From: a virus
Virus record (IMG/VR): IMGVR_UViG_3300046011_010905
Location: 1 to 21,876 of that record
Reading direction: 5' to 3' (one strand)
Length of the DNA: 21,876 bases
Of the stretch, positions 1,870 to 16,899 are shown piece by piece (the first letter of the stretch is position 1; every line of letters begins with the position of its first letter). The notes beneath the pieces are model-generated. The model did no database searches. It worked only from the letters and a program-made list of their open reading frames with translations, and was not told the origin of the DNA. Position numbers and translations under genes: made by a program.

Positions 1870-3242
1870 TTTTTGTAGTTTTCCAAGTAATGATTTAAAT
1901 CTTCAGGAGTACCTAAACCCCACATATTTTCAGCTGGGATTTGGTAGTTGTATATTTTTTTATCTTCTTGGATAGCTTCATTATAGACAGGACAAACATA
2001 AAATTCATTATTTACTCTGATATTTTTATCTATCATTTGTTCTGCTGATTTAACAAAATCAGACCCATGTTTCCAATAGTAAATTCCTGCTGTTGCTTGA
2101 TTTGAAATTGGATTTTTTTCGGCTACTTCAGTAATAATTCCATTTTCGTTTGTTTTAGCAAATGACCATTTTGGGTGTGTAGCTTCAAAACACATAATAG
2201 CACCATCGTATCCTTTTTCATTCATCTGATACATAAAATCAGTTGAATCCCATTCAATAAATTGATCTGAGTTGGTTAGTATTAGTTGATTTTCATTGTT
2301 AATATATTCCCTAGCTAATAGGACAGTACATGCTGCTCCTTCAGTCATCCCATCTACTTCAACTATTTTACAATTAGGAGTAATTAAATTAAGTAATGTA
2401 TCTAAATTATATTTTTCCCTATGTGATTTTTGAACTATATAGATAAAATTAGCTTCAATATTCATTGCTTCAACTACAACCTGGATCATTGGTTTTCCTT
2501 CTATGTCAATAAGAGGTTTAGGGAATGAATATCCTACCTTTTCAAAGCGGCTTCCAGCACCTGCCATAGGAACAACAATATTTAATTTTTCATCATGCCA
2601 TTTACTTTTATTCATATTATTTGTTTTCAATTTATTTTTAATTTTTTCTAAAGTAATGTCTACAGAATTTTTTACACGAAGTATAGAAGCATTTGAACGG
2701 TAAGCAGCTAATAATCCTTGAGGAGAATCCTCAATAATTAATGTTTCTTCAGGTAAACAACTCATCATTGAAATAGCTTTCCAATATACTTCAGGGTGTG
2801 GTTTTGGATTTTTAACATCATCATTTGTAACAATAACATCTAAATATTCAATCACCCCTGTTTTTGCTAAAGCCACTAATGCTGTTCTTCTAATACTATT
2901 AGTACAGCAACCAAGTAAATAACCCTCATCTTTTAATGATTTAAAGATAGATATTATTTTATTATCTATTTTTATTTTTGAAAATTCTTCTAAAGTTAAT
3001 TGTTGTTTCCTGTCGTATATTTGTTGGTGAGCCTCTACAGGAAGTCCTTTTTCTTTAGTTAACATTTTTAATTTAGTTCCTGTCTTTAATCCATCATATC
3101 GAGTAATATGTTCTTTTTCTGTAATAACATATATAGGATCTATTTCAAAAATAGCTTTATTTAGAGATTCATAGTGAATATCTTTAGTATCTGTTATAAC
3201 ACCATCTAAATCAAATAATATTAGTTTTATTTTAGAAAGCAT
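1866..3242 (-). CDS. HAD phosphatase-nucleotidyltransferase fusion
   Basis: A 458-residue two-domain protein. Residues about 5-205 are a HAD phosphatase of the beta-phosphoglucomutase type: LFDLDGVITDT (D11, D13), CCTNS (T114), NPKPHP (K147) and IIEDSPQG (E171, D172). Residues about 219-458 are a sugar-phosphate nucleotidyltransferase: PMAGAGSRF, then FPKPLIDIEGKPMIQ, with NSDQF as the metal-binding Asp region. Together they suggest removal of a phosphate from a sugar bisphosphate and activation of the sugar 1-phosphate to an NDP-sugar, as in heptose and capsule pathways; the substrate and base are not evident. A methionine (residue 210, codon at 2613-2615) sits in the linker behind an A-rich stretch like other starts here, so a separate transferase could also be made. 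A promoter-like element abuts the ATG. Confidence 0.85.
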   Translation of the reverse strand: MLSKIKLILFDLDGVITDTKDIHYESLNKAIFEIDPIYVITEKEHITRYDGLKTGTKLKMLTKEKGLPVEAHQQIYDRKQQLTLEEFSKIKIDNKIISIFKSLKDEGYLLGCCTNSIRRTALVALAKTGVIEYLDVIVTNDDVKNPKPHPEVYWKAISMMSCLPEETLIIEDSPQGLLAAYRSNASILRVKNSVDITLEKIKNKLKTNNMNKSKWHDEKLNIVVPMAGAGSRFEKVGYSFPKPLIDIEGKPMIQVVVEAMNIEANFIYIVQKSHREKYNLDTLLNLITPNCKIVEVDGMTEGAACTVLLAREYINNENQLILTNSDQFIEWDSTDFMYQMNEKGYDGAIMCFEATHPKWSFAKTNENGIITEVAEKNPISNQATAGIYYWKHGSDFVKSAEQMIDKNIRVNNEFYVCPVYNEAIQEDKKIYNYQIPAENMWGLGTPEDLNHYLENYKK

Positions 3243-3246
3243 ATTA

Positions 3247-3278: not shown

Positions 3279-3307
3279 TTATTTTTTTCTTAAATTGAAT
3301 TTTCATA

Positions 3308-4126
3308 TTAGTACATTTTATATAATTTGTTTATACCTTCTTCTAATGTTGTTTTTGGTTGCCAGAATTTTAAAATATAACTATCAGCATTATTCATAGC
3401 ATTCTTTTGAGTTTGATCCTGCCTAGTAGATGGGATTATTTCACATCCTGAAATATTTTGAATTATCTTTGCTACGTCAATTACTTTAACCCAGTCAAAA
3501 TTAGTTATATGATAATTTTTATTTCTATTTAATGTATGGTATTTTCTACTTAATACTAGGAGACATTCAGCGCAATCATCTCCATATAATAATTGTCTTG
3601 ATTCTTGTCCATCTGTTCTCATTTTAATAACACCTTCATACTTAGCCATTTTAATAAAGTCAGTTATAACGTGAGATTTTTCTTCATCCTTTTCATAACC
3701 ATATACATTCCAAAATCTAACAACTATACCATTTAAATCCTTAGTCATCTTTTCACCTATACTCTTTAATTGACCATAGGTAGAATAACCTAATTCAGAC
3801 ATTTGTGATGAAGCAAATAATACTGGTTTATTATACTTTTGAATCAATTCAAATGTATTAGCCATTATTTTTATATTGTTGCTAATAAATGGGTAGGTAT
3901 CTTGATATTTTTCAAGGTATTTAGCCCCACCAACATCAAATGCTAAGAAGTGAACTATATCACATTCTTTAATTTTACCTTCAAGAAGTAAATTATTTGG
4001 TATTCTAAGATCTTCATTTAAATCTCTTTCAATATCAAATTCAATTACTTCTTCTCCTTGATTTTTAAAATAATCTACAATACAATTACCTATTTGTCCT
4101 GATGATCCTAAAACTAGATGTTTCAT
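3308..4126 (-). CDS. NAD-dependent sugar epimerase/dehydratase
   Basis: A 272-residue extended short-chain dehydrogenase-like enzyme that would act on an NDP-sugar. The Rossmann motif GSSGQIG is at 7-13 and D31 after the second strand suggests preference for NAD(H). The active-site pair is Y117 and K121 (YGQLK) preceded by SSQMSE, and VRFWNVYG is the usual strand after it. It is somewhat shorter than typical UDP-sugar epimerases (about 310-340). The gene overlaps the upstream gene by ATGA and is followed by the 65-nt gap, so it closes the sugar block. The active site lacks the Asp-Glu pair of 4,6-dehydratases, so epimerase, reductase or decarboxylase chemistry is more likely; which one cannot be told. 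Confidence 0.85.
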   Translation of the reverse strand: MKHLVLGSSGQIGNCIVDYFKNQGEEVIEFDIERDLNEDLRIPNNLLLEGKIKECDIVHFLAFDVGGAKYLEKYQDTYPFISNNIKIMANTFELIQKYNKPVLFASSQMSELGYSTYGQLKSIGEKMTKDLNGIVVRFWNVYGYEKDEEKSHVITDFIKMAKYEGVIKMRTDGQESRQLLYGDDCAECLLVLSRKYHTLNRNKNYHITNFDWVKVIDVAKIIQNISGCEIIPSTRQDQTQKNAMNNADSYILKFWQPKTTLEEGINKLYKMY

Positions 4127-5016
4127 ATAATATTTTTACTTTTAGTCCATTGTTGAAGGTAATAAGAGAATTTTGATTCTATAACCTCTCTTTGATTTTC
4201 TATTTTATTTAAAACTAACATATTTTTATAATAATCCGCAAAATTATTCTTATCTTCCTTATCTGGGTGATATTCAAATATAATTTGATTTCTTAAGATA
4301 TATTCTTTAATATTGTACCCCTTTTGAACAGCTATATCTGATGCTAACATACTATAATAATCCCAAGGGCCGTATCCTTTCCATTCATCCGGTATTGGGA
4401 TTAACTCTATAAAATCTTTGCTATATAGGTCAAACCAACCAGCATATTTAAAACGAGTTGCTTGTTGTAGATAAGGTTCACCTAATACTTTAGACTGAAT
4501 TTCAAATATATCTGACTTATTCCAGTTTTCATAAGGGACACCTTGGTAGTTTTCATTTACTAACTCATCCCAAGTCCAATCCCATAGCTTATGAATTTCG
4601 GGAGTTATAATAAAATATTTATCTGGTATATTTTTAGCTGATTCAATCAGGTAATATAATAAATGTTCATGAAACCACATATCAGGACAAATAGGGATAT
4701 AATAGTCTATATGTGGTTCTATTTGGTTTTTTTGTAAATCTAAATGACCCCACAATTCATTTCCTTCATATATTGTAGAGCGTATTGTTGTCCAATCTAA
4801 TAATTTAAGTAAAACATTAAATTTATTGATGAAAAATTCTTTAGGTAATTTAGATTCCTTCCAGTTAATTACATAATCAGATAAATTCAAAGCAACATCA
4901 ATATGTACTTTATCTTCTGGGTTTAGGTGAGATGAGGCTTTTTTAAGTTGGGTAAATGTAAGTAGAGCATAGTCTATTTCCCACGGCATTATATGATATA
5001 TTAATTTAATATTCAT
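4123..5016 (-). CDS. Unrecognised, putative glycosyltransferase
   Basis: A 297-residue protein rich in aromatic residues (many Trp and Tyr) with no signal peptide or membrane segment. I do not recognise the family with certainty. The opening MNIKLIYHIMPWEIDYA, a middle YYIPICPDMWFHEHLLYYL and the strand YFIITPEI with a following WDWTWDE resemble the layout of GT-A transferases, where such a Pro-Asp segment lies near the donor site, but no clear DXD is present. The gene is coupled by ATGA overlaps to sugar-nucleotide enzymes on both sides, which makes a role in sugar transfer or modification the best guess from context only. Confidence 0.6.
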   Translation of the reverse strand: MNIKLIYHIMPWEIDYALLTFTQLKKASSHLNPEDKVHIDVALNLSDYVINWKESKLPKEFFINKFNVLLKLLDWTTIRSTIYEGNELWGHLDLQKNQIEPHIDYYIPICPDMWFHEHLLYYLIESAKNIPDKYFIITPEIHKLWDWTWDELVNENYQGVPYENWNKSDIFEIQSKVLGEPYLQQATRFKYAGWFDLYSKDFIELIPIPDEWKGYGPWDYYSMLASDIAVQKGYNIKEYILRNQIIFEYHPDKEDKNNFADYYKNMLVLNKIENQREVIESKFSYYLQQWTKSKNII

Positions 5017-5777
5017 TTTAATTTATTATATACTTCTTTGATACCTTGTTCTAATCCAGTAAAGTTAAGAGATAAATTATAAAAAGTTCCATTATACATT
5101 TTATCCCAATCATTCTCAATAGTTTTTACTTCTACTTTATAATCATTTAAACTATTAATGATATTTGCAATGTTTTCTAAACTATAAAATTTATTGTAAT
5201 TACAATTTAATTCTTTAGGACCATCATTATTTATATAATGCTCCACTATTTTAATTAAATCAGGCATATAAATAAAATCCATGTATTTATTTTGATAGAC
5301 TACTATTGATTCTTTATTTATATAACGTTTAATATTTGCCTTTATAAATCGTGTATCTAATTCATTTTCATCAAATGTACCAAATATTCGTAAATTATAA
5401 AAGTTATCTTTATTAAGTATAGATTGTCTAATTACATGTTTGCTTAATCCATAAGGATTATTTTGAGAATATATTTCTGCCCCTGATCCAAAATGTATGA
5501 ATTTTTTAAAGTGTGATTGTTGTTTTAATAGATTATAATATATAGAAAGATTATCATCCATTACACTCCAATCATCTTGTTGTAGTCTACTTCCTCCCTT
5601 TATAGCACAATGTAATACTACATCAAAATGTGTATTTTTGAAAAAATATTCGATTTGCCTTGAATCAGTTAAATCTACTTCTTTTCTAGTAAGAGTAGTT
5701 ACTCTATATTTATCTTTTAAAGCATTATGTAATGATCTACCTACATAACCATTAGCTCCAGTAATCAATATTTTCAT
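5013..5777 (-). CDS. SDR-family NDP-sugar reductase/epimerase
   Basis: A 254-residue extended short-chain dehydrogenase-like enzyme, close to RfbD/WcaG/YerF-type reductases in size. Residues 5-13 carry TGANGYVGR, the nucleotide-binding loop; LTRKEVDLTD follows the second strand; HFGSGAE and YGLSK (Y109, K113) form the active site. No Asp-Glu dehydratase pair is present. It overlaps the upstream acetolactate-synthase-like gene by ATGA, so the two proteins are probably made in step. In yersiniose synthesis the ThDP enzyme YerE is paired with the reductase YerF, which reduces the newly attached two-carbon branch; the adjacency here makes that role an attractive inference. A GDP-fucose-synthase-like or 4-ketoreductase role is an alternative. 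Confidence 0.82.
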   Translation of the reverse strand: MKILITGANGYVGRSLHNALKDKYRVTTLTRKEVDLTDSRQIEYFFKNTHFDVVLHCAIKGGSRLQQDDWSVMDDNLSIYYNLLKQQSHFKKFIHFGSGAEIYSQNNPYGLSKHVIRQSILNKDNFYNLRIFGTFDENELDTRFIKANIKRYINKESIVVYQNKYMDFIYMPDLIKIVEHYINNDGPKELNCNYNKFYSLENIANIINSLNDYKVEVKTIENDWDKMYNGTFYNLSLNFTGLEQGIKEVYNKLK

Positions 5778-7507
5778 AACATAATTTCTTTCATTTCATC
5801 ATCACTTAAATAAGGAAACATATTTTCTAATGAGTTAGATATAATTTTACCATTACTATCCTTAGATGATTGTACACGTGGTATTAATAATTGGTTTTCA
5901 ATCATCATTATTTCACACAATACTGGTCCTTCTGTATTTAATATTTCATCTATTTTATTTTCTAATTCAGTATTATTGTTAAGAATATATGTTTTAAATC
6001 CATAAGCGTCAGCTAATTTAGTAAAATTAGGATTACTAACCCCACTATCAGGATTAGATCCAATATATTTTCCTTTAAATAGATTATCTTGCATCAATGA
6101 AATAGCTAAATAACCATTATTATTAAGCAAAAATATTTTTAAAGGTATTTTATTATGAATTATTGTTTGTAATTCCTGAATATTCATTTGTAACCCTCCA
6201 TCTCCGGCAATTAATATAATATCTTTACTTGGATCTGCAAAATAAGCTCCAATAGCTCCTGGTAAACCAAATCCCATTGAACAGCAAGCACTAGATGTAA
6301 ATAATCTGGATTTACCGTTCATTTGCAGTGATTGCATTGTACATGTATAACTTGTACCCATATCAGTTACTACAATATTATTATCTGTTAATTTATTAGA
6401 TAATACCTCCATAAAATAAAATGAATTTATTTTTTCATTATTTATTTTATATTCAGGCTGAAATACTGGGTATTTTTCCTTCCATGATTGGGTTTTGTTA
6501 ATCCAATTAGTCCAATCTGGTATGTTTTTATTTTCTAGTTTGGCTTTAAGTATAGATAAGAAAAATTTTAAATCTTTATTGATAGGATAATCTATTTTAA
6601 TAGTTGGTTTTTTTAATTCATTTTCATCTATATCAACCATTATTTTAATAGAATTAGGAGAAAAAGACTGGTGTTGGTATCCTATATTAGGGATAGACAT
6701 TCTACTACCTAATATTAATAACAAGTCGGCATTTTGAACTGCAAAATTACCAGCTCTTTCACCTAATAATCCAAAATTTCCTACAAATAGAGGATCATTA
6801 TGATTTAATAAATCTTTAGAAGTCCAAGTTGATATTATAGGTATTTGTAATTTATCTTTTATTTCTAAAAATTCTTTTTCTGAGTTAGATAGGTGAATTC
6901 CGTTTCCTGTTACTATTATAGGTTTTTTAGATTTAAGTATAATATCTATAACATCGTCTACAAAATATTCTTTTGGATCAATTTTTGCATTTTGGATATC
7001 TAATGGAATATCTAACCAAACAGGGCCTTTTCTACCAGTAGTTGCTTCTTGATAAGCTTTTTCAAGGCATGATACTATATTATTAGGATTAGTTATCTGA
7101 ATAGCATATTTAGTAATAGGTTTTACCATACTAATTATATCACATTCTTGTACACCTAATTGTCTTAATTTAATATCTTTTAAACTACCTAATGATTGAT
7201 CTACTGGTACTTGTCCCGAAATTATGATCATTGGGATTGAATCTTGATAGGCTCCAACTACACCGGTAAGAGTATTAGTAGACCCAGGTCCATTAGTAAC
7301 TAAAACACAAGCTGGTTTATTGGCTATGCGAGCGTATCCTTCAGCTGCCATAGCACATGCCTGTTCATGATAATTACAGATATATTTAAAATCTCTTTCT
7401 GCTACTGAATTGAGTAGATGAGCTGCTGCTCCTCCAGATACTGAAAATATGGTATCTATTCCTTTAGATTTGAGAAAATCAAATACATAGTCTGAAACTT
7501 TTATCAT
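5774..7507 (-). CDS. Acetolactate-synthase-like ThDP enzyme
   Basis: A 577-residue, full-length three-domain thiamine-diphosphate enzyme of the acetohydroxyacid synthase superfamily. The Pyr domain has the catalytic glutamate E48 in NYHEQACAMAAEGYAR and the TNGPGSTNT loop (71-79). A central domain spans about 185-345. The PP domain has GDGG at 435-438 and NN at 462-463, the cofactor motif. The C-terminus (SLENMFPYL then acidic residues) recalls ThDP enzymes of surface polysaccharide clusters rather than IlvB. There are no other branched-chain amino acid genes here; the neighbours are sugar-nucleotide enzymes. Inference: like YerE, it may decarboxylate pyruvate and attach the two-carbon unit to a 4-keto sugar. 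Overlaps on both sides (ATGA) tie it to the HAD and the reductase. Confidence 0.88.
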   Translation of the reverse strand: MIKVSDYVFDFLKSKGIDTIFSVSGGAAAHLLNSVAERDFKYICNYHEQACAMAAEGYARIANKPACVLVTNGPGSTNTLTGVVGAYQDSIPMIIISGQVPVDQSLGSLKDIKLRQLGVQECDIISMVKPITKYAIQITNPNNIVSCLEKAYQEATTGRKGPVWLDIPLDIQNAKIDPKEYFVDDVIDIILKSKKPIIVTGNGIHLSNSEKEFLEIKDKLQIPIISTWTSKDLLNHNDPLFVGNFGLLGERAGNFAVQNADLLLILGSRMSIPNIGYQHQSFSPNSIKIMVDIDENELKKPTIKIDYPINKDLKFFLSILKAKLENKNIPDWTNWINKTQSWKEKYPVFQPEYKINNEKINSFYFMEVLSNKLTDNNIVVTDMGTSYTCTMQSLQMNGKSRLFTSSACCSMGFGLPGAIGAYFADPSKDIILIAGDGGLQMNIQELQTIIHNKIPLKIFLLNNNGYLAISLMQDNLFKGKYIGSNPDSGVSNPNFTKLADAYGFKTYILNNNTELENKIDEILNTEGPVLCEIMMIENQLLIPRVQSSKDSNGKIISNSLENMFPYLSDDEMKEIML

Positions 7508-7890
7508 AAGGTTTTTTCTATAAATTTTAATGTATCACTCCAATTTTCAAAACGATACCCATTATCATCAATATACAACTCAGCTCTTGGTTTTTCACTT
7601 GTAATACTATCAATATAATCTAAAATATTATATTTTTTAAACCACTCTTGTACCAACTCAGTTCCTGTTTTACCATTTACTAAAGGACGGTCTGGTTTGG
7701 CTTTAGCAGTGAAAATAATAATTTTATATTTTTTAGATAATTCCTTAATAGCATCTATAGCTCCAGGTAAAGGATCTCCATAACAAGTTCCATCACCCCA
7801 ACCTTGATAAGCATTGTGTAATACTCCATCAAAATCAATAGCAACTACATTTGATTGACTCTCAAACCCAGGAGGTGAAAAATTAGCCAT
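7504..7890 (-). CDS. Small HAD-family phosphatase
   Basis: A 128-residue HAD-fold protein without a cap domain. Motif I is AIDFDGVLH (D19, D21), motif II is IIFTAKA (T61), K100 could serve as motif III, and motif IV is YIDDN (D108, D109). The N-terminal 13 residues before the first strand are extra. Size and layout fit small C0-type HAD phosphatases seen in phages and in polysaccharide clusters, which dephosphorylate sugar phosphates or nucleotides. It overlaps the cupin gene upstream by 8 nt and the ThDP gene downstream by ATGA. It is distinct from the HAD domain of the fusion protein at 1866-3242, so this operon encodes two HAD phosphatases, possibly for two steps of one pathway. Confidence 0.82.
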   Translation of the reverse strand: MANFSPPGFESQSNVVAIDFDGVLHNAYQGWGDGTCYGDPLPGAIDAIKELSKKYKIIIFTAKAKPDRPLVNGKTGTELVQEWFKKYNILDYIDSITSEKPRAELYIDDNGYRFENWSDTLKFIEKTL

Positions 7891-8566
7891 TTTTAATAAT
7901 TGTCATTATAATAGTTTCAGGAATTACTCCATCTAATTGTTTTGATACTTGTTTAACAATATTAGCAAATCCAACATCACCCGGTATAGTGACGCAATGA
8001 GAAATTCCTTCTATATTGCGTACCATTCCTCCTTTAAGGAACATAATTAAATCTTCATCTTTTTTATTATTAATTACATCAATATCATCTATTGTTTCAA
8101 TTTTCAAAATACAGTTAGCAAATGAATATATTCTACATTCTCCTAATTTTGGTTCTTGTATCCATAAACAATCATTAGTTTTAGCTTCTTCAAATCTATC
8201 ATCTTCATAAGGTTTAGAAGTACGCCCATATTGATCATTTAACCTAACTAGATCTTGTTTATCTACTGGGGTTTCAATTTCAAATATAAAAGCTCCTTCA
8301 TCTGATGTTGCTTTGGTAGAATGAAATAGTCCTCTTCTAATCATTACTTTATCTAGGGCTTCTAATTGTCTTTTATCAGCTAAAAATGATATTTCAGCCT
8401 TACCATCTAATAACACTAATCCTGTTGTTTTTTTAGGATGACAATGCATTGAGGTACTTTGATTAGGTGCTATATAAAGAAACCATAAGCCTACATTTTC
8501 ATTCTCGTAAGCCAGATATTCATATCCCCAGGGTTTTTTTACTATATTTTTATTGTGATCACTCAT
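7883..8566 (-). CDS. Cupin protein, sugar isomerase-like
   Basis: A 227-residue cupin. The N-terminus KKPWGYEYLAYEN and the metal-site region SMHCHPKKTTGLVLLDG (H41, H43) resemble the cupin domain of type II mannose-6-phosphate isomerase/guanylyltransferase and of related sugar-cluster cupins. E16 in WGYE and the glycine-rich turn fit as well. The second half (about 130-227) looks like a second, degenerate beta-barrel without a visible His cluster (DLIMFLKGG, then ITIPGDVG-like turn). Metal-dependent isomerisation or epimerisation of a sugar phosphate is the family-based guess; binding without catalysis is possible. The start overlaps the DJ-1 gene upstream by ATGA. Confidence 0.75.
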   Translation of the reverse strand: MSDHNKNIVKKPWGYEYLAYENENVGLWFLYIAPNQSTSMHCHPKKTTGLVLLDGKAEISFLADKRQLEALDKVMIRRGLFHSTKATSDEGAFIFEIETPVDKQDLVRLNDQYGRTSKPYEDDRFEEAKTNDCLWIQEPKLGECRIYSFANCILKIETIDDIDVINNKKDEDLIMFLKGGMVRNIEGISHCVTIPGDVGFANIVKQVSKQLDGVIPETIIMTIIKNG

Positions 8567-9105
8567 TTGTTTCTTTCATTATGAACTTGATAAGCCGTTC
8601 TCATCCAATCACCCATAAAATCATAATGTGGGCATGAGATAATATTACCATCTACTACTACAGGACCTCTATCATAGATAGCACCTGCATTTTCAATATC
8701 AACATCAATTGAATAATATCCTGAAATTGTTCTGTCTTTCAAAATTTTAGCTGAAATTAGTAATTGAGCTCCATTGCAAACAGAAAATATAGTTTTATCT
8801 GCTGCGTTCCATTCTTGGATAAATTTGAGTACTCCTTTTTCTTGTCTTACCTTTTCAAGTGCTTTTACACCTCCTGGTACAAGTAGAATTTCATATTCAT
8901 TTAGATATTTTTGTCTTACTTCTTCACTTTCAAAAATTTTAGTTTCTATATCACAAGGCATATGAGTACCCAATGAACCCCAAATTTTACCTTGTTTATT
9001 AGCCATTAATGTTACTTCGTAACCATTTTCTTTTAAACTATAATATGGGTAAATTAATTCATGATCTTGAAATTTTTCCCATGTAATAATAAGTGCTTTT
9101 TTCAT
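8563..9105 (-). CDS. DJ-1/PfpI family protein
   Basis: A 180-residue flavodoxin-like protein of the DJ-1/PfpI superfamily. E16 (in FQDHE) matches the conserved glutamate beside the active site; LLVPGG (75-80) is the characteristic loop; the nucleophile elbow is FSVCNGAQLLISA with C110. Many PfpI proteases have CHG here, so N111 in place of His argues against a Cys-His protease mechanism. VVVDGNIISCP fits the usual C-terminal strand. Family members are deglycases, glyoxalases, hydratases or chaperones. The gene lies 9 nt after the E1-beta gene and overlaps the cupin by ATGA. A role in handling a reactive carbonyl produced by the ThDP enzymes is an inference only. Confidence 0.82.
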   Translation of the reverse strand: MKKALIITWEKFQDHELIYPYYSLKENGYEVTLMANKQGKIWGSLGTHMPCDIETKIFESEEVRQKYLNEYEILLVPGGVKALEKVRQEKGVLKFIQEWNAADKTIFSVCNGAQLLISAKILKDRTISGYYSIDVDIENAGAIYDRGPVVVDGNIISCPHYDFMGDWMRTAYQVHNERNK

Positions 9106-9114
9106 TATATAAAT

Positions 9115-9651
9115 TTATTTTGTTTTAGCATAATCAGCAAATTCAACTAAAATTGTACTAACACCATCTTCACGTCCTAATACTCTTTCATAGGCAGGCA
9201 TTATTTGTTCAGGTTCATGTAATTCAATTACTTCTATATTTTTAAGCATTGAGCGGAAAGCATCAGCAAAATTACCTTTATGTTGACATTGAGGATCTAC
9301 TGGGTGTTCACTACCAACGGCTACCCTAATTATTACTTTGGGTCTGCACCTACCATCAGACATAGTGGTAAATTTATCTAAATGATTTACTATCTGATCT
9401 GTCCCCATTAGTAGGAAATTCCATCTAGGGTATATTGATATAGGAATTAATCCTTCAATAGCCATTCCATTTGCTAATCCACTTTGTAGATATTCAGCTA
9501 CAGGTAGTTCTATTCTTTTATTGGATGGGAGGTGAGATAGCGAATCATATAATCCAGTTCCTTCATATTCTACTGCCTGTCCTATAAACATTGTTTTAGG
9601 ATGTTCAGCTAAGAAACTCATTGCTTGTTTTAATTCATCAAAATATCTCAT
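9115..9651 (-). CDS. E1-beta-like ThDP enzyme Pyr subunit
   Basis: A 178-residue protein corresponding to the pyrimidine-binding domain of 2-oxoacid dehydrogenase E1-beta/transketolase. The catalytic glutamate is E53 in RIELPVAEYLQSGLANGMA, aligned with the T-P-I-A-E signature of E1-beta. PISIYPRWNFLLMGTDQ and KVIIRVAVGS match the following strands. Normal E1-beta is about 325-340 residues and continues into a transketolase C-terminal domain; that domain is absent here and the stop is followed at once by another gene, so the protein is compact rather than broken. It starts 3 nt after the E1-alpha-like gene, and the two subunits should pair to build the cofactor site. Likely a ThDP-dependent carboligase or decarboxylase in the sugar pathway. 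Confidence 0.8.
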   Translation of the reverse strand: MRYFDELKQAMSFLAEHPKTMFIGQAVEYEGTGLYDSLSHLPSNKRIELPVAEYLQSGLANGMAIEGLIPISIYPRWNFLLMGTDQIVNHLDKFTTMSDGRCRPKVIIRVAVGSEHPVDPQCQHKGNFADAFRSMLKNIEVIELHEPEQIMPAYERVLGREDGVSTILVEFADYAKTK

Positions 9652-9654
9652 ATA

Positions 9655-10284
9655 TTAAAATTGAACCCTTACTCCAGCACCTGCATGGGGATATTTTTCA
9701 TTTGTGTATTGATAGTAATATAAATTCTTTTGTTTCAAGATACCACCTTTATATTTGGATTCCAAATAATAAGGAGTATCTCTACCCCAAATATTTGGTG
9801 TTGGAGTGCAGACTGATTTTTTATTATCTTCAACTATAAATGTGATTGGTAAGTCATGATTTAAACTATATTTATATGCTTCATGAAATGCTCCGGTTTC
9901 AGCACTCATATCACCTACCCAGCACCATACTCTATTTGTTTTATCTTGTAATTTTATTGCAAATGCTATTCCAGTAGCAATTGAAGGAATACCACCCACT
10001 ATTGAACTACAAATAAATTTATATTCAGGTAAGTTCATAACCATTGACTTACCATTCATAATGTTTTCTTTTAATACTTCTTTAGGAATACCTTTAAGTA
10101 ATCCTTGGTAATGGTTCCTCCAGGTGCAACATACCCAATCATTTTCAATATCAATATTATTAAATACTTCAATAATTAATTCTTCATTACCTGAGTATAG
10201 ATGGATAGGGGCTTTAATTTTGCCGGCATTGAATGTTTCTCCAATTTCTGTTTCAAATGATATTAATTCATCCTTAGTTACCAT
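9655..10284 (-). CDS. E1-alpha-like ThDP enzyme PP subunit
   Basis: A 209-residue protein matching the pyrophosphate-binding part of E1-alpha subunits of 2-oxoacid dehydrogenases. HLYSGNEELIIEVF aligns with the G-Q-E-A region, TWRNHYQGLLKGIP with the conserved Y-R-x-H loop, and the cofactor motif runs from G124-D125 (VGDMSAETGAFHEAY) to D153-N154 (VEDN). The third motif residue is Met where Gly is usual (GDM, not GDG). Typical E1-alpha has about 320-360 residues; the last 100 or so are missing, replaced by a short tail ending AGAGVRVQF. No frameshift is needed to explain this. It overlaps the 4,6-dehydratase gene by 7 nt. No lipoyl E2 gene is seen, so a true dehydrogenase complex is unlikely. 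Confidence 0.8.
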   Translation of the reverse strand: MVTKDELISFETEIGETFNAGKIKAPIHLYSGNEELIIEVFNNIDIENDWVCCTWRNHYQGLLKGIPKEVLKENIMNGKSMVMNLPEYKFICSSIVGGIPSIATGIAFAIKLQDKTNRVWCWVGDMSAETGAFHEAYKYSLNHDLPITFIVEDNKKSVCTPTPNIWGRDTPYYLESKYKGGILKQKNLYYYQYTNEKYPHAGAGVRVQF

Positions 10285-11240
10285 ATAAATTTGTTTTTAT
10301 AATATTCAACAATATGTAATAATTCTTCATCAAAATTCATTTTAGGCTCCCATCCTAAGGCTTTTAATTTAGAATCATCTAATGCATACCTAACGTCTTG
10401 ACCTATTCTTGAATATGATAAATCTAAATAATTATCTATTCCTTTAAACTTTTCTTCATCATTACTAAAAAATTCATAGATAACTTTTCTAACTGTTTCA
10501 TAATTCGCTTGTTCAAATCCACCAGCAATATTATAAATTTCGTTTTGAACTCCGGCTTCAATAATTTTAACTATTGCTTCCGCGGTATCGGCAGCATGTA
10601 ACCAATTCCTAATTGGTGTGCCGTTATTATGAAGAGATATTTTTCTTCCTAAATGAAGCATTTTACATGCTTTAGGAATTAATTTTTCAACATATTGTCC
10701 TATACCATAATTGTTAGTTGGTCTAACTATAATATAAGGTACATTATAAGTTCTACCCCAAGCTAAAACAAGCATGTCAGCTGCTGCCTTAGTAGCTGAG
10801 TATGGGTTTGAGGGTTTAAGTAGGTCTATTTCTGTATGAGCACCTTCATCTATATCTCCATAAACTTCATCGGTTGAGAAATGAAGTAATGTAGGTGTCT
10901 TAGCTGTTTCTTGTCTATAATTTTTAATTAATTCAAGTAAATTGTGAACCCCATTAATATTAGAATGTATAAATTCATCACTATTAGCTATTGAATTACC
11001 TACATGAGTTTCAGCTGCTGTATTAATTATATAATCACATTCATACAAAAATTTTAGATCATTTATATCACAATGAACAAATGAAAAATTTTCATATTGC
11101 TTAAATTCATTTAGTAAATCTTTATTAGCGGCATATGTAAGTTTATCTACACCCTTAACGTGCCATCCTTTTTTAAGGCAAGCTCGTGTTACATAAGATC
11201 CTATAAATCCTAAACAACCAGTTATATATACTATTTTCAT
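10278..11240 (-). CDS. rmlB: NDP-glucose 4,6-dehydratase, RmlB-like
   Basis: A 320-residue enzyme of the dTDP-glucose 4,6-dehydratase type, which converts an NDP-glucose into the NDP-4-keto-6-deoxy sugar with bound NAD. The nucleotide loop is TGCLGFIGS (7-15). The dehydratase-specific triad T123-D124-E125 lies in STDEVYGD, and the catalytic pair Y147/K151 in PYSATKAAADM. RPTNNYGIGQYVEKLIPK is the usual substrate-binding stretch. Length is slightly below RmlB (about 340-360). No RmlA, RmlC or RmlD genes are beside it; instead an RfbH-type dehydrase is two genes upstream, so its product may be deoxygenated at C3 rather than turned into rhamnose. Whether it uses a dTDP- or CDP-sugar cannot be told from sequence. 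ATGA overlap with the upstream gene. Confidence 0.9.
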   Translation of the reverse strand: MKIVYITGCLGFIGSYVTRACLKKGWHVKGVDKLTYAANKDLLNEFKQYENFSFVHCDINDLKFLYECDYIINTAAETHVGNSIANSDEFIHSNINGVHNLLELIKNYRQETAKTPTLLHFSTDEVYGDIDEGAHTEIDLLKPSNPYSATKAAADMLVLAWGRTYNVPYIIVRPTNNYGIGQYVEKLIPKACKMLHLGRKISLHNNGTPIRNWLHAADTAEAIVKIIEAGVQNEIYNIAGGFEQANYETVRKVIYEFFSNDEEKFKGIDNYLDLSYSRIGQDVRYALDDSKLKALGWEPKMNFDEELLHIVEYYKNKFIW

Positions 11241-12166
11241 TCAAAAATACAATTACATTTTGATTTTAAAAATTCTTTTGTTTCTTCATTAAACCACATA
11301 TGTTTAATTTCATAAACCTGTTCTTCATATGATAATTCATCAGTATCCATTCTATATCCTAATCCTTCACAAAAATGAAATACTTTAATTTGTTTATGAT
11401 CTTTAGTATAAAGTTTATCTTTATCAATATAAAATTCTAAAGAAGGATAAACATCATCTATTACTTGCCCTTTTCTTCCATTTAATACTTTTCCTCTTAC
11501 TAAGCAATATCCTCCAATAACTCCTTTAGATCTTACATTATATACAACTTTTGATTTATGATAAGGAAATTCAACAATAGATACTTTTATGTCTAATTCC
11601 TTTTGATGAAGATAACAATAATTCATTCCCCCCTGCTCAGCATGATCTGTCCAGTATTGAATAGAAACATCATATAAAGTATCTAAAACTTTTTGGTTAT
11701 TAAAGCAAACAACATCTCCATTAATTGATATAGTATCAGTAATAGTTATATCTCCTTCTTTAAATATAGCCGTAGGTGTGGTATAATGTATTGTTTCAAC
11801 AGTATGGTTAGCACCTAAAGTACAAATCATATCATCTTCATTATTATCTAAAAATTCATCTAATCTAGAGCAAGTTAATGTGTCTATACCTAAACTTATT
11901 AGTTTATCGTATTTATAATATTTCATTAATTCTTTAGAAAAATGGATTTTTAATAATCCAACATGATCATAATAATTGTCCATATTTAGTTTTTCTAAAT
12001 ATTCTAACAAATTATTATCGTCAATATAATGTACTTCAACTTCTGGGTTCCATTTTTTAAAGCTATTCACAGCATTAATAGCAAAGAAATTATCGGTAGA
12101 GTAATTTTCAAACTCCCTATCAAAGAAATTAGACTTTAAATTCAAAAATAAACATCCTATTTTCAT
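11237..12166 (-). CDS. GT8-like glycosyltransferase
   Basis: A 309-residue putative GT-A glycosyltransferase. MKIGCLFLNLKS is the first strand, VEVHYIDDNNLLEYL the second, and YDKLISLGIDTLTCSRLDEF (about 85-104) has the place of the DXD-like metal site of GT8-type enzymes, here G-I-D-T. INGDVVCFN and EQGGMNYCY correspond to the middle of such domains, and VFHFCEGLGYRM resembles the C-terminal H-x-x-G metal/acceptor motif. No membrane segment is seen. The DNA is very AT-rich (a sampled 60-base line at 11881 has 11 G/C). It is coupled by ATGA overlaps to RfbH upstream and RmlB downstream. Substrates are unknown. Confidence 0.7.
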   Translation of the reverse strand: MKIGCLFLNLKSNFFDREFENYSTDNFFAINAVNSFKKWNPEVEVHYIDDNNLLEYLEKLNMDNYYDHVGLLKIHFSKELMKYYKYDKLISLGIDTLTCSRLDEFLDNNEDDMICTLGANHTVETIHYTTPTAIFKEGDITITDTISINGDVVCFNNQKVLDTLYDVSIQYWTDHAEQGGMNYCYLHQKELDIKVSIVEFPYHKSKVVYNVRSKGVIGGYCLVRGKVLNGRKGQVIDDVYPSLEFYIDKDKLYTKDHKQIKVFHFCEGLGYRMDTDELSYEEQVYEIKHMWFNEETKEFLKSKCNCIFE

Positions 12167-13476
12167 AATTGATATATAAATTTATCTAATATTGTTTCTA
12201 TATAGTCTGTTTTTTCTTTATTAATTACAGGAGATGTACCTAAAAAGAAAGTGTCTGTTGTGACTTTTTTTGCAACTGGATACTTTGTAAGTACTTCTTG
12301 TGGATCCATAATTCCTTCATAAGCGGGTTGAAGCATAATATTACCTGCGAAGTAGGGTCTAGTTTGAATTTTATTTGCCTCGAAGAACTGACATATGTCT
12401 GATCTTTTAAATGGTGCTTCATCTTTAACTGTTATTGGGAAAGCAAACCAATCAACATCAGCTCCAGGTTGTGCTTCATGTAGATGGAAATATTGTTTGT
12501 ATTTACTAAATGCAACAAATAGATTTTTATAGTTTTCTCTACGTTTAATTCCTATTTCCTCTAGTTTTTCCATTTGAACAAGACCAATAGATGCTTGTAA
12601 TTCAATTGGTTTCAAATTATACCCAATTTCCTCATAAACATATTTGTGATCAAATATATCATTTGGTAGTGAAGGTAACCAATTACTAAATCTACAACCA
12701 CATGATCCTTTTTCTAGCAAATTTTGTTTACCTACACAATAACATCCTCTACCCCATTCTCTAAAACTACGAATAATACGTTCTGTGTTTAAATCTTTTA
12801 CAGCTACAAATCCACCTTCACCCATTGTAATATGATGTGCTGGGTAGAATGAGCAGCTAGCCATTTCACCAAATGACCCTAGTGGTTTGCCTTCAAATGA
12901 AGATCCTAAAGCATCACAGCAGTCTTCTAATAGAATTAGTTTATACTTTTCAATTATTTCCATTAATCGATTCATATTAGGTGGATTGCCTAATACGTGA
13001 GCGAATGTAATTATTTTAGCATCAGGATTATCAATACATGCTTGTTCTACTTGATCTAAATCAAGATTAAGTGTTTCTAATTCAATATCAACAAATATAG
13101 GAGTAAATCCTAACTGAATAATAGGGTTAATTGTAGTTGGAAACCCTGCTATTGGAGTAATTACTTTAGTTCCTTTAGGTAGATTTAAACCACGTTTAGA
13201 GGTTAAAGCCAACATCATTAATAAATTAGCACTTGAACCACTATTGGTTAATAATCCATACTCTTTATTGAATAACTTAGGAAACTTAGTTTCAAATTTA
13301 TTTGCTTCGGCCCCTAATACTAACCATTCACCTAATAATGTTTTAACAGCAGCTATATATTCGTCTGAGTTGAAGTATGGTCCGGCATATTGGACCCAAT
13401 CTTTTCCTGCTTCCCATGTTTTTTCAGAATGTTTTTTACTAATATATTCGTCTACTAATTTGAGTATTTCTTGCAT
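12163..13476 (-). CDS. rfbH: RfbH/E1-type NDP-4-keto-6-deoxyhexose 3-dehydrase
   Basis: A 437-residue PMP-dependent dehydrase of the RfbH/E1 (DdhC) type, the same length as known E1 enzymes. It removes the C3 hydroxyl of a CDP-4-keto-6-deoxyglucose, the committing step to 3,6-dideoxyhexoses. The aminotransferase lysine is replaced by histidine: SFYPAHHITMGEGG has H214 in that place. D185 (LLEDCCDALG) should hold the cofactor ring. The cysteines C245, C247, C259 and C261 (GCYC and SCGC) match the [2Fe-2S] ligands of E1, which the related ColD lacks. The flavin/Fe-S reductase partner (E3) is not in the window and would have to come from elsewhere. A promoter-like element abuts the ATG, and the gene leads the sugar-building block. 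Confidence 0.92.
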   Translation of the reverse strand: MQEILKLVDEYISKKHSEKTWEAGKDWVQYAGPYFNSDEYIAAVKTLLGEWLVLGAEANKFETKFPKLFNKEYGLLTNSGSSANLLMMLALTSKRGLNLPKGTKVITPIAGFPTTINPIIQLGFTPIFVDIELETLNLDLDQVEQACIDNPDAKIITFAHVLGNPPNMNRLMEIIEKYKLILLEDCCDALGSSFEGKPLGSFGEMASCSFYPAHHITMGEGGFVAVKDLNTERIIRSFREWGRGCYCVGKQNLLEKGSCGCRFSNWLPSLPNDIFDHKYVYEEIGYNLKPIELQASIGLVQMEKLEEIGIKRRENYKNLFVAFSKYKQYFHLHEAQPGADVDWFAFPITVKDEAPFKRSDICQFFEANKIQTRPYFAGNIMLQPAYEGIMDPQEVLTKYPVAKKVTTDTFFLGTSPVINKEKTDYIETILDKFIYQL

Positions 13477-13480
13477 ATTT

Positions 13481-13512
13481 TAAATATAATACATTTTATT
13501 AGGACTCCCAAA
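13481..13512 (-). promoter_or_regulatory. Bacteroidota-like promoter ahead of rfbH
   Basis: On the minus strand TTTG (13512-13509, inside the end of the GT61 gene) is followed by exactly 20 nt and TATATTTA (13488-13481), then four bases and the ATG at 13476. The last 17 bases, ATTATATTTA-W-AATATG, are shared with the element before the HAD-nucleotidyltransferase gene. TATATTTA is one mismatch from TAnnTTTG. Use of this promoter would let the sugar-building block be expressed apart from the glycosyltransferases, with a nearly leaderless transcript. Confidence 0.5.
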
Positions 13513-14590
13513 TACTATTATCGTCTATTTGTTTTAATACTTCTATTAACCCATCTATATTAGTTAGCTGCCAAGGTAAATTATCTTTATTAGTTTGTCC
13601 CGTTTCTTCTAAAGTTGATACACACTCTCCACCTCCATCTAAAGTTAATAGATTAGCTCCTGATTTAATTGCAAATTGACTGCATTTAAAATTTAACCAA
13701 TTTTCCATTACTGGGTGGGATATTATTATGTGGTTATTGTTAGGGGTGGAAAAGAATATATTTGTGTTAGATGCACTGCTTTGGTGGATTATATTTTTAT
13801 ATGATTTGAATATTTGGATTTTTTCTTTTAAAGTATAATCCATTAATTCTATAACATCGTAATTTAATTCTTTTTTTATTTTTTCTATTAGTTCTAATTC
13901 ATTCTTTAGTTCTCTTTTATGATACCATCCTCGTTTTATAGTATCTTGTCTTGAAATATAACAACCATTTGTTTTAACTTCAATAGGAGATATTTTATTA
14001 ACTGTTTCTACAATTCTATCAATTATAGGATCATCTCCATATCCTTCAGGAAACCAGTAAAAAACATTAGATAATGTTAAATTATTTACTTTATATCTTC
14101 TGTTCTTTTTAAATATGATTATATCTATATTTTTATCTTGATAATATAAATCTATCCATTCTTTAATAAAAGAGCTATTTCCTGTTTCTTTATAAAAATC
14201 CTCTAAAATTCCTAGTTTTAAATTAGGGTTGGTTTTCTTCAACTCATCAAAATATAAACATCTTCCAAAATAATCAAAGAAAAAATGAGCATAATTAGTT
14301 CCTGTTTCATCATGGATTAAAAATACATCTTCTTCTATTAATTCATCATAGTTAGTATTTTCATCTTTTACATCATAGTAAACTAAATCTCTTCTTCCTG
14401 CTTTTTGAATTTCTTTATCTATACCTGCTCTAACTTTTTTACCATCGTGTGTTATATTAACATATCCATAAACTATATCTGTTTTAATAATAGGATCTAT
14501 ATGTTCAACATAAGCACTAGAAAATACAGTACAGAATTGTCTAAAAGTATGAGGACATCCTTTAATAGGGACATCAATTATTTTATACAT
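13499..14590 (-). CDS. GT61-family glycosyltransferase
   Basis: A 363-residue protein of the GT61 (DUF563) glycosyltransferase type, common in capsule and exopolysaccharide clusters. The family pattern is visible in HDETGTNYAHFFFDYFGR (about 93-110), in GCYISRQDT (about 207-215) and in the C-terminal stretch from VIELMDYTLKEKIQIF to IIHQSSASNTNIFF, where the loop after IIHQ and the N-I-F-F strand are characteristic. No signal peptide or membrane segment is seen, so it would act in the cytoplasm. It starts 7 nt after the GT2 gene and ends 22 nt before rfbH, whose promoter-like element reaches into its last codons. The donor cannot be inferred. Confidence 0.8.
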   Translation of the reverse strand: MYKIIDVPIKGCPHTFRQFCTVFSSAYVEHIDPIIKTDIVYGYVNITHDGKKVRAGIDKEIQKAGRRDLVYYDVKDENTNYDELIEEDVFLIHDETGTNYAHFFFDYFGRCLYFDELKKTNPNLKLGILEDFYKETGNSSFIKEWIDLYYQDKNIDIIIFKKNRRYKVNNLTLSNVFYWFPEGYGDDPIIDRIVETVNKISPIEVKTNGCYISRQDTIKRGWYHKRELKNELELIEKIKKELNYDVIELMDYTLKEKIQIFKSYKNIIHQSSASNTNIFFSTPNNNHIIISHPVMENWLNFKCSQFAIKSGANLLTLDGGGECVSTLEETGQTNKDNLPWQLTNIDGLIEVLKQIDDNSIWES

Positions 14591-14597
14591 TGGTTGA

Positions 14598-15197
14598 TTA
14601 ATTTAATGTATTATAAAATTGATTTTGTTTTTCTTGTCTTTCTATTGTTTTAGGATGAATTAAATCATATCCTTCAGGCAACGGAACTGTATTTTTAGCT
14701 CCAACTAAACGCTCATGAACTTTATTTATCCATTTTATTTCAGGTATATTTTTAAGTATACGTGTTTGATAATCAGGATAATTAACCCATCCATTTTCAT
14801 TAACATTCCATCCCCATTTTTGAATATGTTCTTGAGTTAATCCTTCTACGGTATTGATTCTAGGGACAGCATATAATTCAACTTCAGGATTTAATTCTAA
14901 TATTTCTGGGAGTGAGGCTAGTAGTTCTTCTGAAAGATATTCATCTGCGTCAATCTGGAATATATAATCTTTAGTGCAGAATTTTTTTAAGTGATTTTTA
15001 AAAGAAGCAAAGTCACCATTTAAAGGATACATTGTGTATTTATTAGCTATTGTTCTTACTTCTTTAGTGGCATTATCCATGTCTAATTGAATTACAATTT
15101 CATCCTCATCACGGATATTATTTTCAAGTAATTCAAGTAAACGAGCAAGTTCAACATGCTCATTGCAAGCAGTAATAGCATAACTAATTGAAGGCAT
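14598..15197 (-). CDS. GT2-family glycosyltransferase
   Basis: A 199-residue GT2-type transferase with the start at the ATG 15195-15197; a longer frame opens with TTG at 15216-15218 but overlaps the previous gene, and the domain begins MPSISYAITACNE, so the ATG is preferred and lies 4 nt after the upstream stop. IVIQLDMDN and the DXD-type D83-A84-D85 (IFQIDADEYL) are the nucleotide and metal sites; FKNHLKKFC before it is the usual helix. EIKWINKVHERL near residue 160 fits the conserved W-x-x-x-H-E region of lipooligosaccharide-type GT2 enzymes. It ends close to the next gene. A cytoplasmic enzyme, likely adding one sugar of the phage-directed glycan. Confidence 0.85.
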   Translation of the reverse strand: MPSISYAITACNEHVELARLLELLENNIRDEDEIVIQLDMDNATKEVRTIANKYTMYPLNGDFASFKNHLKKFCTKDYIFQIDADEYLSEELLASLPEILELNPEVELYAVPRINTVEGLTQEHIQKWGWNVNENGWVNYPDYQTRILKNIPEIKWINKVHERLVGAKNTVPLPEGYDLIHPKTIERQEKQNQFYNTLN

Positions 15198-15201
15198 AAC
15201 G

Positions 15202-15597
15202 TTATTTTTGTTTTTCAAAGAAACCTATATAATCTAGGGCTTCCATAAATTCTTTTTCTTCAAAGTGTTTTACTGTTGTCATATCTGCTTTTCCATCTTT
15301 AGATTGAATACCTGCCCATTTCCAATCTTCAGTTGACTTGCCATCAGCAAATACCATTGCTTTATCATCTAAAATTACTGTTGATGGATACCAATTATAT
15401 CCTTTAGCATCTTTAAATTTTAAATCAATATAAAGTTGAGGCATTACTCCTTCAATATTTTCTAAATTTTCATCTACTGTAGTAATATTAGCTGTGAATC
15501 CACATCCAAAACAACTCCATACAGTGAATTTTTCATTTGATGCTTCGTGACAAGCGTTACCATTACATTTAGGGCATGTTCCAAGTGATTCTTTCAT
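15202..15597 (-). CDS. Zinc ribbon protein of unknown function
   Basis: A 131-residue protein with an N-terminal zinc ribbon: TCPKCNGN has C8 and C11, and SCFGCG has C29 and C32, spaced as a standard two-knuckle site. The remainder (about 45-131) is beta-rich with many aromatic residues (YNWYPSTVILDDKAMVF, then WKWAGIQ), possibly a small barrel. I do not recognise a named family for it. Its ATG shares a base with the stop of the GT4 gene upstream (TAATG), so it is coupled to glycosyltransferases, but nothing in the sequence links it to sugar chemistry; nucleic-acid or protein binding is just as likely. Confidence 0.72.
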   Translation of the reverse strand: MKESLGTCPKCNGNACHEASNEKFTVWSCFGCGFTANITTVDENLENIEGVMPQLYIDLKFKDAKGYNWYPSTVILDDKAMVFADGKSTEDWKWAGIQSKDGKADMTTVKHFEEKEFMEALDYIGFFEKQK

Positions 15598-16898
15598 TAG
15601 TCTACCTTTTTAAGTTTAGGTAATTCAATTTTCTTTAATTGAGGGAGTTTAAGTTGTACTGGTTTTGGTACTTTATTTTCAAGGATAGATATTAGGTTTT
15701 CTCCCATTTTTTCTAAACTAAATTCAGTACGTGAACGATAAGCTTGTTTCTTTGCCCCGTCAGTATACTTTTTATAATTTTTATAAACATCTTCAAGCGT
15801 TTCAGCTGCTTTTTTATAATCAACAGTAAACCAAGCACTTTCTGGAAGGATCATATCTGGTACTACTGCTGAAGGGTGAATTTGTTTTAATTCTCCAGAT
15901 AATAGAATCGACATTTCAGGATCAAGAAAATCCAAATGACCACTCCAATTACTTACTATTACTGGTTTTTGTGATGTAGATGCTTCAAGTAATGGGCGAC
16001 CATATCCTTCACCTTTAGTAAACGATACGTGTGCTTTTACTTTAGGGTGGTTATATAGATTATTTACTTCTTCATCAGATAGTTCACCATGAAGAAGATA
16101 TATTTGTGGTAAGTTATTTCCTTCTACAGTAGATATAATTTTTCTAATTCTATCTAATATTTCCTCTCTATCTAAAACAGAATAATCAACACTAGATGTT
16201 TTAAGAATAAGTCCTGGTTTTTGTTTTTGGTTTTTAAAGGTTTCAAGGAATGTCTTAATCAACATACCTGTATTTTTTCTATCTTCACCTAACTCACCCT
16301 GTAACCAATGACCAACATATAAGAAGTTAAATTCCTCACTAATGTAATCAAATACATCCCAAATTTCACTTTCATTAGCTTTATCTACTTTTTTATATAC
16401 GTCTGTATTAACTCCTTCAAATAATACTTCTATAGGTTTTTCAAGTTTAATATTACGAACTACTTGACCTGTTTGATTATTTTTTTCTTCAAATTTACTA
16501 TTTTCAAATATATTTTTAGCATGGTTTGAAGATACTAAAGTTAAATCCATTCTATTAATTCCATCAATCCATTGAGGAGCGCAAATTGTAGTTTCAATAC
16601 CCGCTGTCATCCCAATATTAAATTTGCCTACTGGTTGGAATTCATTTGGCACTGTAATTTGAATCCAACAATCTGGTTGCTTTGGTAATTGAGGGTTTAA
16701 TAATAAACAATCTTTAAGTAATTTATGATCAGGATTATCATTTTGTAAAAATCCCCAAGGAGTATTTCCCCATCTTTGTGGAAGTATTTTTACATCATAT
16801 TTTCCAGATTTAACAATAGGTAACACTACATCTCTAGATCTAGCTCCATAACCGGAAAATGTATCAATTGGACAGCTTATAACTATTAGTGGTTTCAT
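15597..16898 (-). CDS. GT4-family glycosyltransferase with repeat tail
   Basis: A 433-residue GT-B fold glycosyltransferase. The N-terminal half opens with IVISCPIDTFSGYGARS, a glycine-rich acceptor-side loop. The C-terminal half begins near FNFLYVGHW (about 191) and carries the EX7E motif of GT4 enzymes at E297 and E305 (KGEGYGRPLLEAS). The last 22 residues hold a near-duplicate of LPxLKK (KLPQLKKIELPKLKK), a basic, low-complexity tail outside the fold. It starts 1 nt after the preceding GT4 gene and overlaps the zinc ribbon gene. Retaining transfer from an NDP-sugar is the family expectation; substrate unknown. The two adjacent GT4 genes are only distantly alike. Confidence 0.85.
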   Translation of the reverse strand: MKPLIVISCPIDTFSGYGARSRDVVLPIVKSGKYDVKILPQRWGNTPWGFLQNDNPDHKLLKDCLLLNPQLPKQPDCWIQITVPNEFQPVGKFNIGMTAGIETTICAPQWIDGINRMDLTLVSSNHAKNIFENSKFEEKNNQTGQVVRNIKLEKPIEVLFEGVNTDVYKKVDKANESEIWDVFDYISEEFNFLYVGHWLQGELGEDRKNTGMLIKTFLETFKNQKQKPGLILKTSSVDYSVLDREEILDRIRKIISTVEGNNLPQIYLLHGELSDEEVNNLYNHPKVKAHVSFTKGEGYGRPLLEASTSQKPVIVSNWSGHLDFLDPEMSILLSGELKQIHPSAVVPDMILPESAWFTVDYKKAAETLEDVYKNYKKYTDGAKKQAYRSRTEFSLEKMGENLISILENKVPKPVQLKLPQLKKIELPKLKKVD

Positions 16899-16899
16899 A

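Follow-up and report, generated by a model that had tools for sequence, protein, structure and literature searches.

An island with an exchangeable carboligase slot, putatively for carbon-branched deoxysugars, in T4-like phages

The window analysed here is the whole IMG/VR contig IMGVR_UViG_3300046011_010905 (21,876 bases), whose island genes all lie on the minus strand and are read from a clamp loader gene (20624-21544) towards a ClpP gene (3-542). For the interval 5013-13476 an original prediction had proposed a phage-encoded pathway to a branched 3,6-dideoxysugar, built from an RmlB-type 4,6-dehydratase, an RfbH/E1-type 3-dehydrase, an acetolactate-synthase-like thiamine diphosphate (ThDP) enzyme and a reductase. 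All four are intact open reading frames on the minus strand. Overlooked in that prediction were an E1a/E1b pair, which constitutes a second complete ThDP enzyme within the interval, the genes for DJ-1, cupin and HAD-like proteins, and the swappable nature of the branching slot. The enzyme classes of the island are assigned firmly. In reading direction, the genes of the interval are the following.

12163..13476, minus strand: RfbH/E1-type 3-dehydrase, 437 residues (RfbH model, E1 structures, His and four-Cys loop)
11237..12166, minus strand: conserved island protein, found in part of the relatives (synteny; Pfam scan blank)
10278..11240, minus strand: RmlB-type nucleoside diphosphate (NDP)-glucose 4,6-dehydratase, dTDP-like, 320 residues (dehydratase models)
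9655..10284, minus strand: E1a, minimal pyrophosphate (PP)-domain subunit of a split ThDP enzyme of the E1/alpha-keto-acid-dehydrogenase type, 209 residues (Pfam E1_dh, 6.5e-15; phrog_34187)
9115..9651, minus strand: E1b, minimal pyrimidine (PYR)-domain subunit with catalytic Glu53, 178 residues (Pfam Transket_pyr, 1e-4, under the gathering score; phrog_34187)
8563..9105, minus strand: DJ-1/PfpI family protein, travelling with the ThDP subclade of the window (Pfam, synteny)
7883..8566, minus strand: cupin (Pfam; the homologous region is fused to ThDP enzymes in the cellular relatives L156 and L157)
7504..7890, minus strand: small HAD-like protein, 128 residues, travelling with the ThDP gene (DFDG motif by sequence inspection; Pfam scan without match)
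5774..7507, minus strand: YerE-like (JanthE-like) ThDP carboligase, 577 residues (tree, PDB, diagnostic columns, fold)
5013..5777, minus strand: SDR1, extended short-chain dehydrogenase/reductase (SDR) with S98/Y109/K113, candidate reductase (motif, synteny, Foldseek)

The 577-residue ThDP enzyme contains all three Pfam TPP domains and the catalytic motif E48, G435-D436-G437 and N462/N463. Its best PDB match is 8rph (386 bits), which is JanthE, an enzyme termed YerE-like (PMC12188165), and the runner-up is an acetolactate synthase with 265 bits. The alignment with JanthE (Janthinobacterium sp. HH01; 8rph, 8rpi, 8rpj), which of the solved structures is closest in both sequence (34% identity) and fold, runs through a C-terminal tail that the structures of acetohydroxyacid synthase (AHAS) shown are without. 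JanthE has CDG where the window enzyme has GDG (Cys at this site is seen in a few phage homologues too), and Lys567 of JanthE is replaced by Arg544. With the predicted model (pLDDT, the predicted local distance difference test, of 77), Foldseek likewise places JanthE on top (1e-51, against 8e-43 for AHAS).

In a maximum-likelihood tree of 146 rows, Yersinia YerE not being among them, 102 rows (JanthE, 62 of 63 phage sequences and 39 bacterial ones) are separated from 44 rows including AHAS with 100% support in the Shimodaira-Hasegawa-like approximate likelihood-ratio test (SH-aLRT). The window enzyme falls on the JanthE side and not with IlvB/AHAS, as the originally proposed sugar pathway called for. 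The label 'phage' has to change 11 times on this tree, and well-supported branches require at least seven of these changes, a pattern consistent with repeated acquisition or exchange. Two alignment columns discriminate the groups: that of Tyr466 holds Tyr in 39/39 YerE-side bacteria and Leu or Met in 36/36 AHAS, and that of Arg544 holds Met in 35/36 AHAS. The Arg of the AHAS DDR motif has a role towards the carboxylate of the acceptor; its column is Pro273 in the window and Arg in 36/36 AHAS rows, but it was dropped as a clean AHAS marker since 22/39 YerE-side bacterial rows retain Arg. An RfbH-like gene lies in the fetched neighbourhood of 22/39 YerE-side bacterial genes and of none of the 36 AHAS genes (Fisher p about 1e-8). 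By sequence and model the enzyme is firmly classified as YerE-like, not IlvB, and carboligase activity is predicted for it.

A collection of 50,697 phage records yielded only matches below 60% identity to the YerE-like gene, in keeping with the earlier statement that such a route would be unusual in phages. These matches were excluded as phage examples, as host names and annotations suggest that they are mostly misfiled bacterial contigs. In one viral homologue (L037, 10001-11725; IMGVR_UViG_3300035698_024406) the YerE-like gene carries two in-frame TGA codons at sites that are mostly Trp or similar residues in relatives (GVLGC*LDSIP and GPV*IDIP), which suggests that this phage reads TGA as Trp; L037 was left out of one alignment for this reason.

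RfbH scores 457.6 bits with the NCBIfam RfbH model (cut-off 423), has the E1 structures 3bcx and 3bb8 as top PDB matches (E 2.7e-99) and aligns over the whole chain with E1 of Y. pseudotuberculosis. As had been noticed before, a His replaces the pyridoxal phosphate (PLP) lysine (motif SFYPAHH) and the iron-sulfur cysteines are present (C-Y-C...C-G-C). Among the long phage homologues the PLP-site His and three of the cysteines are kept in 130/130; the loop of the window enzyme holds four. A 3-deoxygenation of the ColD type was ruled out, as the cysteine loop is absent from ColD and E1 scores much higher. The RmlB-type dehydratase, also correctly recognized in the original prediction, reaches 299.5 bits with the dTDP-glucose 4,6-dehydratase model (TIGR01181) and 76.8 bits with the CDP-glucose model (TIGR02622), with which the phage dehydratases reach at most about 81 bits (cut-off 278). 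The dehydratases tested from bacterial YerE-like clusters match the CDP model best, five over the cut-off (438-518 bits) and two under it (214-221 bits). Because the phage dehydratases fit the dTDP family and the bacterial ones the CDP model, the phage enzymes point to dTDP-linked sugars.

E1a and E1b match opposite ends of one phage family, phrog_34187, E1b corresponding to its C-terminal part. Their catalytic residues (G124-D125...N154 in E1a and E53 in E1b) are kept in at least 97% of the rows of 80 viral homologues. In E1b, with only 178 residues, the Pfam scan shows no transketolase C-terminal domain. A search for a minimal E1 in 296 Bacteroidota genomes gave only E1 alpha of open frames of 330-372 residues with about 30% identity. 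Seven loci in which the slot appeared to be empty (L144, L111, L143, L136, L133, L154 and L124) contain instead two paired proteins with about 205 and 158 residues, for which Pfam gives transketolase-type PP and PYR domains in the three loci scanned. As in the E1-type proteins, the ThDP catalytic residues of the viral transketolase-type proteins are conserved in at least 97%.

The exchange of these enzymes became apparent from a comparison of about 300 viral loci (identified here by L numbers), onto 154 of which the window genes were mapped. The common order is exonuclease-GT1b-GT1a-g15-GT2b-[GT61]-RfbH-[g112]-RmlB-{slot}-SDR1-g41-...-ClpP, where the slot contains the YerE-like gene (with or without the DJ-1, cupin and HAD-like genes), E1a-E1b, both, or the transketolase-type pair. 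Counted by contig group and anchored on RfbH, 44 groups have RmlB and sufficient sequence; a ThDP carboligase accompanies RmlB in 42 of them (YerE-like 21, E1 10, transketolase-type 9, YerE-like together with E1 2), and the two others have an HpcH/HpaI aldolase gene downstream of RmlB. Anchored on the split enzymes, and not dereplicated, RmlB is found in 75/80 E1 loci and in 52/80 transketolase loci. Four near relatives (L002, L082, L090 and L096) have flanking genes in common at roughly 75-97% DNA identity and different slot contents, which is direct evidence of exchange. That the gene set of the interval is a chance arrangement is excluded, since the same synteny recurs over many contigs. 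The three ThDP classes in the slot coincide with those that accept ketones and branch sugars according to a 2025 review: YerE-like decarboxylases, alphaKADH2 and, as a proposal only, split transketolases (PMC12247030). In the aldolase loci (L089, 20056-20853; L102, 18338-19138) the HpcH/HpaI-type gene follows RmlB and no ThDP carboligase was detected there.

The SDR1 gene overlaps the ThDP gene by ATGA, as first described, and mostly comes after whichever carboligase is present: its homologue starts less than 400 nt after 119/160 E1 or transketolase pairs. The predicted fold is that of an extended SDR, and Foldseek puts 4-keto sugar epimerase/reductases first. On a second structural look many SDRs are tied, with the top rows within about Z 2, and a specific reductase name was given up as not supportable.

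Accessory genes vary with the subgroup. In eight loci (L046, L048, L052, L055, L067, L072, L075 and L079) the YerE-like gene is followed, in some directly (L072, 11793-12716; L052, 11793-12731), by a ketopantoate hydroxymethyltransferase of the PanB type, whose family acts on 2-keto acids. This neighbourhood suggests a hydroxymethylated 2-keto acid as donor in that subgroup; ErwE, a known YerE-like enzyme, takes hydroxylated donors (PMC12247030). The closest cellular relatives of the window enzyme, one from a genome of Nitrospinaceae and one from a genome of Pacearchaeota, are single proteins of 850-862 residues that combine a cupin with the ThDP carboligase and are encoded beside radical SAM genes (L156, 7212-9797; L157, 7257-9806).

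The island belongs to a T4-like phage. A gp23-type capsid protein is matched in 14/14 long island contigs, in 13 above the cut-off, and the gp23 of one relative of the window shows 60% identity to its counterpart in Flavobacterium phage immuto and 51% to the one in Microcystis phage Mel-JY01. Contigs of 316 and 453 kb that bear gp23 also carry E1 modules. A capsid scan of 20 contigs for nucleocytoplasmic large DNA viruses gave no match and no control signal either, and its result was not used; gp23 was detected in 9 of these 20. Judged from these sequence relationships, the host of the window phage is probably a member of the Bacteroidota.

Taken together, the interval would be the nucleotide-sugar part of a glycan island. 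The host would supply NDP-glucose, probably dTDP-glucose, which RmlB would turn into the 4-keto-6-deoxy sugar; RfbH, fed with electrons by a host reductase, would then take off the C3 hydroxyl. The ThDP carboligase is expected to add the acyl unit of a 2-keto acid, the donor class of its family, to the ring ketone, presumably at C4 with formation of a tertiary alcohol, SDR1 would reduce the carboligase product, and the glycosyltransferases of the island would put the sugar onto a glycan of the virion or of the host surface. Related phages fill the exchangeable carboligase position with a YerE-like enzyme, a minimal split E1, a minimal split transketolase or two of these, the window having two. 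The best available explanation of the whole, and in our judgement quite probably the correct one, is an island for a C-branched NDP-sugar of the 6-deoxy or 3,6-dideoxy type, in which the branching step is interchangeable and NDP-glucose and electrons come from the host. A branched deoxysugar is the likely product. The acceptor of the window's subgroup, with its DJ-1, cupin and HAD-like partners, is the least certain step of the route.

Several observations weigh against this explanation. The dehydratases of the window and the related phages score 289-302 bits and stay under the TIGR01181 equivalog cut-off of 365, although this is still the closest family; therefore the nucleotide is only inferred. 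PF00175 and PF00111, used as proxies for the E3 reductase RfbI or a ferredoxin, are unmatched in the 14 long, possibly incomplete, island contigs, so that RfbH would need a redox partner from the host, and NTP_transferase was detected in just three of these contigs. RfbH is present in only 54/80 E1-anchored and 33/80 transketolase-anchored loci, so some of the routes would do without 3-deoxygenation. In neither genome with a cupin-ThDP fusion (L156 and L157) does an RfbH match exceed the cut-off, and hence the window's ThDP subclade could have another acceptor. Finally, the explanation does not account for the presence of two carboligases in one window. The lack of RfbH in part of the E1 and transketolase loci and in the cellular relatives would fit another keto acceptor, with the branch at C3 or in a side chain, or with two branches made by two carboligases, RfbH and SDR1 possibly serving separate sugars. 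Known E1-type (alphaKADH2) enzymes do branch at C3 or C4 (PMC12247030), and both carboligases are repeatedly found together (in the window, L104 and L072/L155). However, most RfbH-anchored contigs have the slot flanked by both RfbH and RmlB, so that a common 3,6-dideoxy-4-keto substrate is favoured, and we regard a different acceptor as unlikely while giving it some weight.

A phage copy of the yersiniose A pathway proper, as in Yersinia pseudotuberculosis, would proceed from CDP-glucose via RfbG, RfbH/RfbI, YerE with pyruvate, and YerF (PMC12247030). The island resembles it in that a decarboxylase-superfamily ThDP carboligase lies near RfbH with a reductase immediately after, and in the predicted tertiary alcohol on a 4-keto deoxysugar. 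The original prediction had matched the order of reactions to RfbG, RfbH, YerE and YerF; the deoxygenation and branching gene set, RfbH and a YerE-like enzyme are indeed there, but not RfbG, the dehydratase being of the dTDP type and not of the CDP type found in bacterial YerE-like clusters. In addition, the long contigs show no RfbI-type domains and no clear RfbF, the DJ-1, cupin, HAD-like and second carboligase genes of the phage-borne island have no counterpart in the scheme, and among solved structures the closest relative is JanthE, an enzyme without an assigned natural substrate (PMC12188165). Yersiniose itself is an unlikely product, and the pathway proper an improbable identity for the island. 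More improbable still is a true acetolactate synthase, an ilvB auxiliary metabolic gene that would raise the branched-chain amino acid supply of the host. The AHAS model TIGR00118 is the top NCBIfam model by score, and a gene of this kind appears in a viral survey among auxiliary genes as K01652 ilvB, together with rfbG (PMC8226683). Yet the score of 374 bits falls short of the cut-off of 538, the tree, PDB ranking, diagnostic columns, predicted structure and C-terminal tail favour JanthE, and the gene sits among nucleotide-sugar genes in a slot that E1 and transketolase modules fill as well; a role in amino acid metabolism was rejected on these grounds.

ThDP enzymes are known to form branched sugars of bacterial O-antigens and of antibiotics. 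The open-access literature searched yielded no account of branched deoxysugars made by phages. By enzyme class the E1 pair resembles alphaKADH2 such as KbDH-alpha/beta (PMC12247030), likewise a split alpha/beta-type ThDP enzyme in a deoxysugar cluster, but the phage subunits have only 209 and 178 residues and the PYR subunit shows no C-terminal domain. The transketolase-type pair of the related phages, absent from the window, recalls the split transketolases proposed in the sugar clusters of miharamycin and amipurimycin (PMC12247030), a type of branching that is experimentally unproven so far (PMC12247030); in the phages the two subunits are minimal, with about 205 and 158 residues, and are encoded beside RmlB/RfbH. 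Among isolated phages, the cyanophages P-TIM68 and S-SM2 carry in their glycan islands a single-chain homologue of E1a and E1b, the 'transketolase central region' (phrog_34187), with an alcohol dehydrogenase and heptose-type genes among the neighbours; the annotation of the regions shown includes neither RfbH nor a YerE-like gene. Cyanophage S-H68 carries RfbH, and no YerE-like gene was detected in it. The island of the Immutovirus immuto, the closest isolate by gp23 and GT1b, occupies the same site after the exonuclease and has the same GT1-GT1-GT2 block, but an aminotransferase and other sugar genes where the window has RfbH, RmlB, carboligase and SDR1. Prasinoviruses, which infect algae, resemble the cassette by annotation only: their genes for an acetolactate synthase, a dTDP-glucose 4,6-dehydratase and two transketolases have been interpreted as amino acid/Calvin-cycle and sugar genes (PMC5454428). 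These Micromonas virus genes, including the two transketolase halves, may belong to a similar sugar-branching kit (PMC5454428).

Outside the interval, the window contains the following island genes.

13499..18360, minus strand: glycosyltransferase block (GT61, GT2 and two GT1-type), upstream of the sugar genes (models, synteny)
3308..4126, minus strand: SDR2, a second NAD-dependent epimerase/dehydratase-family protein (Pfam)
1866..3242, minus strand: HAD-nucleotidyltransferase fusion at the island end, possibly for a sugar-phosphate or NDP-sugar step as judged from its domains (domain models, synteny)

The ClpP-type protease (3-542) that closes the island is kept in near relatives, and its best PHROGs family is a head maturation protease. 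A transfer-messenger RNA gene (L110, 2351-2747) with the tag DEMSTMTFEDLMSFVGADYALAA lies on a phage contig from the same group that bears gp23. In phage immuto, the nearest isolate (L257), annotated genes for a DpdA-like DNA guanine transglycosylase and QueF-like proteins (918-3844) make 7-deazaguanine DNA modification possible.

What is chiefly new is the exchangeable slot for the carboligase, with its minimal split ThDP enzymes. The general proposition is that T4-like phages of lakes and the sea share a modular branched-sugar island, in which the slot between the pair of dTDP-type dehydratase and 3-dehydrase and the reductase is swapped among three ThDP superfamilies, two of them minimal split enzymes (about 160-210 residues per subunit, here virus-only), diversifying the sugar branch; we consider it evenly balanced between right and wrong. 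Judging from the island, phages may diversify their glycans through exchange of the carbon-branching enzyme. The island is also a source of numerous new candidates for ketone carboligases, among them very small split enzymes, in a field where few have been characterised. Viral genes labelled 'ilvB' and 'transketolase' in surveys may partly be glycan genes and not genes of amino acid or central carbon metabolism.

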